A DNA stretch of 64,000 nt from Galactobacter valiniphilus (lineage in GTDB: Bacteria > Actinomycetota > Actinomycetes > Actinomycetales > Micrococcaceae): positions 62,001-126,000 of the forward strand of contig NZ_QQXK01000005.1 of NCBI RefSeq assembly GCF_003575975.1, given 5' to 3'. The translations under genes and the position numbers were made by a program. The notes beneath the pieces were generated by a model. The model saw nothing but the letters and a program-made list of their open reading frames with translations, was not told where the DNA came from and ran no database searches. Below, in pieces: positions 51,229-51,411 of this stretch. The stretch's first letter is position 1. Each line of letters begins with the position of its first letter.

Positions 51229-51260
51229 TTGACGGGTGTCCGCGCCCGCGGTGGTAGCCT
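51229..51260 (+). promoter_or_regulatory. leuA promoter: TTGACG and TAGCCT
   Basis: A -35-like TTGACG (51229-51234) and a -10-like TAGCCT (51255-51260) stand before the leader ATG, which follows the -10 by seven bases. The 20-base spacer is long; GGTAGC (51253-51258) would give 18. The mRNA would start at the leader peptide start codon. Confidence 0.55.
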
Positions 51261-51267
51261 CACAGGC

Positions 51268-51324
51268 ATGCTGCAGGGCCTCCTTCTTCTTGGTTGCCGC
51301 GGCGAGGTGCTAGCGACCTACTAG
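51268..51324 (+). CDS. leuA leader peptide
   Basis: A short frame encoding 18 residues, MLQGLLLLGCRGEVLATY, with six leucines, four of them consecutive (codons CTC CTT CTT CTT). It ends 87 bases before leuA. Its last codons and stop lie inside a hairpin (51297-51307 with 51339-51349). Leucine-rich leader peptides before leuA that sense leucyl-tRNA are known in actinobacteria. The start has no ribosome binding site and fits leaderless initiation. Confidence 0.8.
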   Translation: MLQGLLLLGCRGEVLATY

Positions 51325-51349
51325 GGTCTTGGCCGACCCCTCGCCGCGG
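51297..51349 (+). promoter_or_regulatory. Attenuator-type hairpin of the leuA leader
   Basis: CCGCGGCGAGG (51297-51307) pairs perfectly with CCTCGCCGCGG (51339-51349). Inside, GGGTC (51324-51328) pairs with GACCC (51335-51339), competing for one base. A ribosome stalled on the Leu codons (51280-51291) or at the stop would cover the left arm. No T-run follows, so control may be by translation or Rho rather than intrinsic termination. Confidence 0.6.
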
Positions 51350-51411
51350 AGTTCATGCGTGCCGGCCGCCAAGCCACCCACACCTTGAATCTTCGAAGGA
51401 CACCATTTCTC

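Follow-up and report, generated by a model that had tools for sequence, protein, structure and literature searches.

The leuA leader of Galactobacter valiniphilus is a LEU element whose pseudoknot recurs before leuC and leuB, before leuB with a changed codon run

The leuA gene of Galactobacter valiniphilus is preceded by a LEU element, a further copy of the switch named in 2005 and found then before leuA in most Actinobacteria examined (Seliverstov et al. 2005, PMC1262725). The copy in our window (the whole stretch of 64,000 nucleotides analyzed here) thus belongs to a known kind; what is new is a set of copies in which the codons have been swapped. On balance we lean toward reading the family as a reprogrammable branched-chain amino acid switch, in which the pseudoknot is a constant scaffold and the codon run upon it is exchangeable; the run would act as both sensor and anti-Shine-Dalgarno strand, and the downstream region would co-evolve with it. 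Under the same reading, the run would be Leu before leuA and leuC, Leu/Val/Ile before leuB-ilvE (where a small open reading frame [ORF] comes first), and Val rich before a small gene in family f7. The leader frame, the covariation of the pseudoknot, the matching of run and initiation region, and the sensor swap at other branched-chain genes are each borne out by comparison among natural copies.

In the window, the leader lies between leuA and a preceding era-like gene (named by eye; ORF 50154-51119). A GC-rich inverted repeat without a T run (51141-51174, by eye) sits just 3′ of the era-like gene and is perhaps the end of that gene's transcript. The leader region comprises the following features.

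51229-51234, + strand: TTGACG, a possible but weak −35 hexamer (20-nt spacer to TAGCCT), from the sequence
51255-51260, + strand: TAGCCT, a TANNNT-type −10 box ending 7 nt 5′ of the leader ATG, from the sequence and relatives
51268-51324, + strand: leader ORF MLQGLLLLGCRGEVLATY including the stop, 18 codons, probably leaderless, with a Leu-run frame conserved in relatives
51280-51291, + strand: putative sensor run of four Leu codons, CTC CTT CTT CTT, from the sequence
51281-51286, + strand: TCCTTC, 5′ strand of the base stem, within the Leu run; 6 bp with GAAGGA at 51395-51400
51297-51307, + strand: P1 5′ arm CCGCGGCGAGG, in an 11-bp perfect stem with covariation in relatives
51331-51335, + strand: P2 5′ arm GGCCG, inside the P1 loop, from pairing in the window and relatives
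51339-51349, + strand: P1 3′ arm CCTCGCCGCGG, in the same 11-bp stem
51363-51367, + strand: P2 3′ arm CGGCC, beyond the P1 3′ arm, from pairing in the window and relatives
51395-51400, + strand: GAAGGA, candidate leuA Shine-Dalgarno sequence 11 nt 5′ of the ATG, from the sequence and relatives
51412-53154, + strand: leuA, 2-isopropylmalate synthase (TIGR00970, 812.8 bits versus a cutoff of 697.4)

Much of the initial annotation of this region stands: an 18-residue frame with four Leu codons in a row begins 7 nt after TAGCCT (ATG at 51268, TAG at 51322-51324), and the gene behind it is leuA by its TIGR00970 match. The leader was also proposed to be leaderless, and the mRNA probably does start at or very near ATG 51268, judging from the conserved spacing of the −10 box and from a Streptomyces lividans homolog reported as leaderless. 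A scan of 51100-51460 returned no sigma-70 promoter pair and zero terminator-like sites, in line with the earlier statement that no intrinsic terminator is evident, and the window leader does not show the intrinsic terminator and competing antiterminator that make a classical transcription attenuator.

The 11-bp perfect stem described around the stop codon is present (51297-51307 with 51339-51349). Its 5′ arm is formed by the last base of TGC, the codons CGC GGC GAG, and the first base of GTG, and the stop codon sits in its loop. An overlapping inner stem had also been described; a second pairing exists there, best read not as an inner stem but as P2 (GGCCG/CGGCC), and because the P2 arms lie inside the P1 loop and beyond P1, the two helices form a pseudoknot. 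What had been called an attenuator-like hairpin is therefore half of a pseudoknot that was already described in 2005. A pairing seen in the window only, CTTGGC (51328-51333) with GCCAAG (51368-51373), is an alternative to P2. The window thus has a Leu-run ORF 5′ of leuA, a two-helix pseudoknot (11 bp and 5 bp), and a 6-bp base stem, all of them features of the LEU element. Folded alone, the window leader is no better than shuffled sequence (z = −1.04; 29 of 200 shuffles as good), and the base stem is absent from its minimum-energy fold, so the case rests on comparison with relatives. Rfam 15 gave no match near the gathering score in 51000-51600 and zero matches for 20 related loci.

As defined in 2005, the LEU element combines a Leu-codon ORF, a pseudoknot, a base stem between Leu codons and Shine-Dalgarno sequence, and no obvious terminator (PMC1262725), and the window shares all of these. 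It was then placed before leuA and one transposase sequence, whereas here it is also found before leuC and before leuB-ilvE with changed codons; a protein binder was favored there, whereas translational attenuation is favored here. For the homologous LeuL1 of S. lividans TK24, MRFGLLLLSCRGEGL, leaderless transcription and the absence of a typical Rho-independent terminator are reported (PMC8079986); its start comes from RNA-seq and ours from spacing only, and the cited part of that account contains no structure test or mechanism. Leaders before leuA are likewise reported in Corynebacterium glutamicum (PMC4046766, PMC3890552) and C. diphtheriae (PMC5784534), as is a ribosome-protected upstream ORF in Mycobacterium abscessus (PMC4974804). 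Like our leader these precede leuA and are Leu rich where a peptide is described, but the cited parts of these sources mention neither a pseudoknot nor a sensor swap. Mycobacterial polycysteine ORFs (Canestrari 2020) are short leaderless ORFs with contiguous codons for one amino acid, a description that the leader here probably fits, and they are described as acting on downstream genes via cysteine supply; they differ in the amino acid, and neither a pseudoknot nor a stem between codons and Shine-Dalgarno sequence is mentioned in the cited parts (PMC9031893, PMC9094748). The ilvB leader attenuators also place branched-chain codons before a biosynthetic gene, but the cited descriptions give them terminator hairpins (PMC1262725, PMC13236596), of which none was found in the window.

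The element accompanies leuA almost throughout the class sampled. Of 196 class genomes, 194 gave leuA-like matches, as did 38 of the 39 relatives, and we collected 137 leuA upstream regions (30 + 30 loci, three of them shared, plus 80 chosen to spread over genera). A short ORF with at least three Leu codons and an upstream TANNNT box was read in 132 of the 137, with starts picked with a preference for that box and six ORFs read as >30 amino acids whose true starts may be further down. Conservation of the frame in relatives, on which the initial annotation had staked its interpretation of a leucine leader peptide, is thus upheld. The five regions without a parsed run are one with no upstream sequence (L031), two with degenerate runs and P1 by eye (L039, L058), and two with no element by eye (L041, L047). 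TANNNT occurs 6 to 9 nt 5′ of an in-frame ATG or GTG near the run in 117 of the 132 relatives, compared with 10, 3, 0, 5, 2, 1, 2, and 3 of 132 in eight control windows displaced by 10 to 60 nt. A covariance model of 66 sequences (R1) matched 287 of 296 class genomes at an E value of 0.01; a second model (R2) was made without the Leu run and included eight non-leuA or second copies, and the source genomes of both were among those searched and match by construction. In a phylum-wide draw, R1 matched 36 of 246 genomes, 25 of them within the class; four of the 11 matches outside it were strong, and all four lie 5′ of leuA (by eye, from translation). The window's own genome yielded no convincing second copy (next best R1 match, E = 0.05; one R2 match, E = 0.1).

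Second leuA genes with their own element occur at L206, L208, L209, L230, L232, L235-L237, L240, L242, L245, L249, and L261; some carry altered runs such as TTVL or LFL, and the codon tally for this group still contains L208 and L235, which were read in the wrong register. L302 and L303 (family f89, outside the class) have a frame ending LLLLLL* or LLILLL* before a different hairpin, possibly an unrelated Leu attenuator. At L246 a model match (E = 2.2e-6) precedes a ROK-type repressor-like gene (by eye), with no sensor run in a clear frame.

Both helices of the pseudoknot are supported by comparison. For P1, the reading frame fixed the position of the 5′ arm, and a profile whose seed was complementary helices fixed that of the 3′ arm; at least 10 of the 11 pairs form in 125 of 132 rows. 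Across 61 distinct arm pairs, 93.1% of positions are paired; re-dealing the 3′ arms 2,000 times gives 87.2% on average and 89.1% at best. Among 66 representatives, 59 cells in 7 of the 11 pairs change on both sides, a count reached by 0 of 500 shuffles, while slid registers give only 1 to 4 such cells. These are 66 of 69 representatives; the set had been prefiltered to keep only those with 10 or 11 of the 11 P1 pairs formed, which inflates its 98.8% pairing. P2 arms also match within species (n = 124, 0 of 20,000 permutations). Rows with fewer than 9 of the 11 P1 pairs (L009, L035, L046, L052, L062, L131, and L132) were excluded from the codon counts and run tests below, leaving 125 of 132.

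The Leu run is in turn matched to the leuA initiation region of its own species. The last 12 nt of the run pair with it at −9.12 kcal/mol, versus −7.91 kcal/mol with the regions of other species (n = 104; z = −6.4, 0 of 20,000 permutations), and three other segment definitions give z of −4.3 to −5.7 (each 0 of 20,000). The copies are partly related and such counts overstate independence; with near-relatives removed, 78, 55, and 22 representatives give 0, 33, and 84 of 20,000. Four other leader segments, used as controls, show no within-species matching to the initiation region (n = 104). Of the 125 loci, 107 (104 of them distinct) have their start no more than 90 nt from P1, and 99 of the 107 entered the constrained fold. 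Codon choice within the run is skewed: of its 414 Leu codons at the 125 leuA loci, 195 are CTT, as against 22 of 830 in the leuA starts, and 104 of the 125 runs end in CTT. When only the last 9 nt are considered, however, the real Leu codons have no significant pairing advantage over draws based on genomic usage (67 of 125 better; P = 0.20).

Predicted openness of the Shine-Dalgarno sequence shifts modestly between ribosome states. In folds masked by a ribosome (n = 107), it is 0.342 with the leader free and 0.365 with the ribosome at the stop; among the last three Leu codons, placing the first in the A site gives 0.453 and placing the last there gives 0.408. With no pseudoknot imposed, the last-Leu stall exceeds the stop state at P = 0.019 (60 of 107 up). 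When the pseudoknot is imposed, mean openness is 0.377 for the free leader and climbs to 0.522 once a ribosome covers the run (an increase in 76 of 99), while covering only the N-terminal part gives 0.414 (an increase in 59 of 99; run versus N-terminal part, P = 3e-8). The corresponding values for the window are 0.58, 0.75, and 0.68.

We consider it probable that the element works by ribosome-mediated translational attenuation, with the Leu run serving as both sensor and anti-Shine-Dalgarno strand; the initial annotation had likewise raised a translational read-out, which we judge plausible. The mRNA would begin at or very near the leader ATG. In translation, the Leu codons would be where the ribosome pauses when charged leucyl-tRNA is scarce; as RNA, the same codons would pair with the Shine-Dalgarno region of leuA, the P1/P2 pseudoknot between the two strands keeping them close. 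With ample leucine, the ribosome would complete the leader and depart, the run would pair with the Shine-Dalgarno sequence, and leuA translation would stay low. When leucine is short, the paused ribosome would cover the run, freeing the initiation site so that leuA could be made. We infer the direction of control, the pausing, and translation as the main read-out as against a share for Rho.

Further copies stand in front of other genes. We ran R2 on 40 genomes (39 of them chosen for at least two R1 matches) and 39 relatives. The same pseudoknot precedes leuC at six loci (one checked by Pfam), with a Leu run, and leuB at 18 loci with a (P/G)GDGIG motif (two checked by Pfam) in 14 genera and seven families. 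The four codons before the spacer in leuB leaders comprise 27 Leu, 19 Val, and 18 Ile of 72, and 17 of the 18 loci have Leu, Val, and Ile within five codons; leuA leaders have 414 Leu, 11 Val, and 0 Ile of 500 codons, and over five codons 20 of 125 include Val and none includes Ile. The gene downstream of leuB is in keeping: ilvE encodes the transaminase shared by Leu, Ile, and Val, and it lies downstream in 15 of the 17 leuB loci tested (G077 was left out), one of the 15 being the source of the query itself, while it was not found in the stretch examined in the other two (G162 and G107).

The element is separated from leuB by a small ORF at all 18 loci (L205, L213, L225-L229, L233, L234, L238, L239, L241, L250-L252, L254, L256, and L257), and at 15 of them this ORF contains the sequence motif A[LIV]Qxx[LM]D[LR]R[DE]; four examples had no NCBIfam match and a fifth no credible Pfam match. 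At these loci the first regulated start would be that of the small ORF, which would leave room for polarity or transcriptional effects. In family f7 (L212, L214, L247, and L259) the element precedes a different small gene, and Val accounts for 9 of 16 sensor codons; this gene had no credible Pfam match at the four loci and no NCBIfam match at two. A sequence pattern for one leuB version hit five contigs, four from Phytoactinopolyspora and one MAG. Six of the 40 regions collected lacked a clear leader and were set aside (L246, L248, L253, L260, L262, and L264), and among 17 weak model matches examined for other sensor amino acids, none carried a convincing leader with this scaffold. The leuB, ilvE, and leuC versions are undescribed in the open-licence literature as far as its cited parts go, including PMC4833913, PMC8632094, and PMC10272879.

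The downstream region follows the run in these copies as well. Using the 110 nt behind P1 with no start chosen, the 28 non-leuA copies pair at −11.24 kcal/mol with their own region and −9.74 kcal/mol with those of others (4 of 20,000 permutations). By group, leuB gives 23 of 20,000, and the tests for leuC (1,307 of 20,000, n = 6) and the f7 small gene (1,651 of 20,000, n = 4) are weak when taken singly. With starts chosen by rule in 27 of the 28 copies, the counts are 2 of 20,000 overall and 58 of 20,000 for leuB. An earlier test on 18 of the 28 copies, with starts picked by eye (z = −4.4), is upheld by the 28-copy test. Here too, kinship among some of the copies makes the permutation counts overstate their independence.

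These copies also bear on whether the run is a sensor at all. We rejected the idea that Leu codons are chosen for pairing alone, given the nonsignificant 9-nt test against genomic usage and the use of GTA, which is unlike what a purine-rich Shine-Dalgarno sequence demands. GTA makes up 15 of the 19 Val codons in leuB leaders, and its unsuitability for such pairing suggests that sensing of rare codons may add to the choice. A pure pairing lock does not predict the Val codon GTA or the Ile codon ATT; because of this, and because the codons follow the product of the pathway, we favor a ribosome that would sense codons on the very strand that locks the start.

Among the alternatives, Rho-dependent transcription attenuation survives best, though we think it unlikely as the main account. 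In this scheme the position of the ribosome on the leader would decide whether Rho could load and terminate transcription ahead of leuA, which would sit well with the absence of any terminator-like site in 51100-51460, with leuB copies lying 201 to 720 nt ahead of the leuB GDGIG motif, and with the proposal of Rho for cys leaders without terminators (PMC1262725). It offers no reason, however, for the run to pair with the initiation region and to vary in step with it.

The protein binder favored in 2005 we regard as improbable. There, an ortholog of ML1624, a protein with a DEAD-box domain, was proposed to bind the pseudoknot, with the Leu codons not acting as sensor, on the grounds of a shared phylogenetic pattern and of leader mutants in Streptomyces coelicolor (PMC1262725). 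The mutations had some effect on leuA that was not consistent with classical attenuation (Craster 1999 as summarized in PMC1262725), and the Leu-codon mutations are stated to be without influence on regulation (PMC1262725). These data count against the translational attenuation that we prefer. A codon-blind protein, on the other hand, would not lead one to expect the difference between Leu at leuA and leuC and Leu/Val/Ile at leuB-ilvE.

Least credible, to the point that we reject it, is arrest of the ribosome by the CRGE tail of the leader peptide: the tail looks conserved in translation, and the initial annotation took its GCRGE-like residues as a hint of peptide-specific stalling, but P1 covariation, codon choice, and a family with stops inside the helix contradict this. 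The alignment that was suggested as a check, tail peptide against RNA pairing, points to pairing as what is conserved, the CRGE codons forming the 5′ arm of P1. The residue after the invariant Arg, fourth after the Leu run, is Gly in 68, Asp in 38, Ser in 15, Asn in 2, and Ala in 2 of 125 leaders, a chemically unlike set that is nevertheless encoded by RRC or RRT in 123 of 125. Gly is written GGC or GGT at this position (68 of 68) and GGG or GGA at the next codon (56 of 56). All 125 tail Arg codons are CGC or CGT and none is CGG, although CGG provides 243 of 1,100 Arg codons in leuA starts. Finally, in all seven readable genomes of family f17 (L131, L132, and L265-L269; pairing by eye for L265-L269) a stop falls inside the P1 arm and the tail is gone, yet the arms still pair; the eighth genome (L283) has no readable leader. 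Nascent-peptide arrest calls for residues whose conservation does not depend on codons and RNA pairing, and no such residues were found. Because P1 covaries, codons follow their position in the helix, and f17 loses the tail but keeps the helix, the comparison indicates that the leader tail is conserved as an RNA shape and not as a peptide.

The 2005 study did not settle how Actinobacteria control leuA, and it discounted the Leu codons as the sensor. Nearly every genome sampled in the class has the element, which has also been reported in genera of industrial and medical importance, and has no Rfam match. Natural copies in which codons, target gene, and downstream partner change together would make possible a direct test of which amino acid is sensed. 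If the reading as a reprogrammable switch is true, it would explain the paradoxical Leu-codon mutants of Streptomyces, in which sensor and lock would have been broken together.
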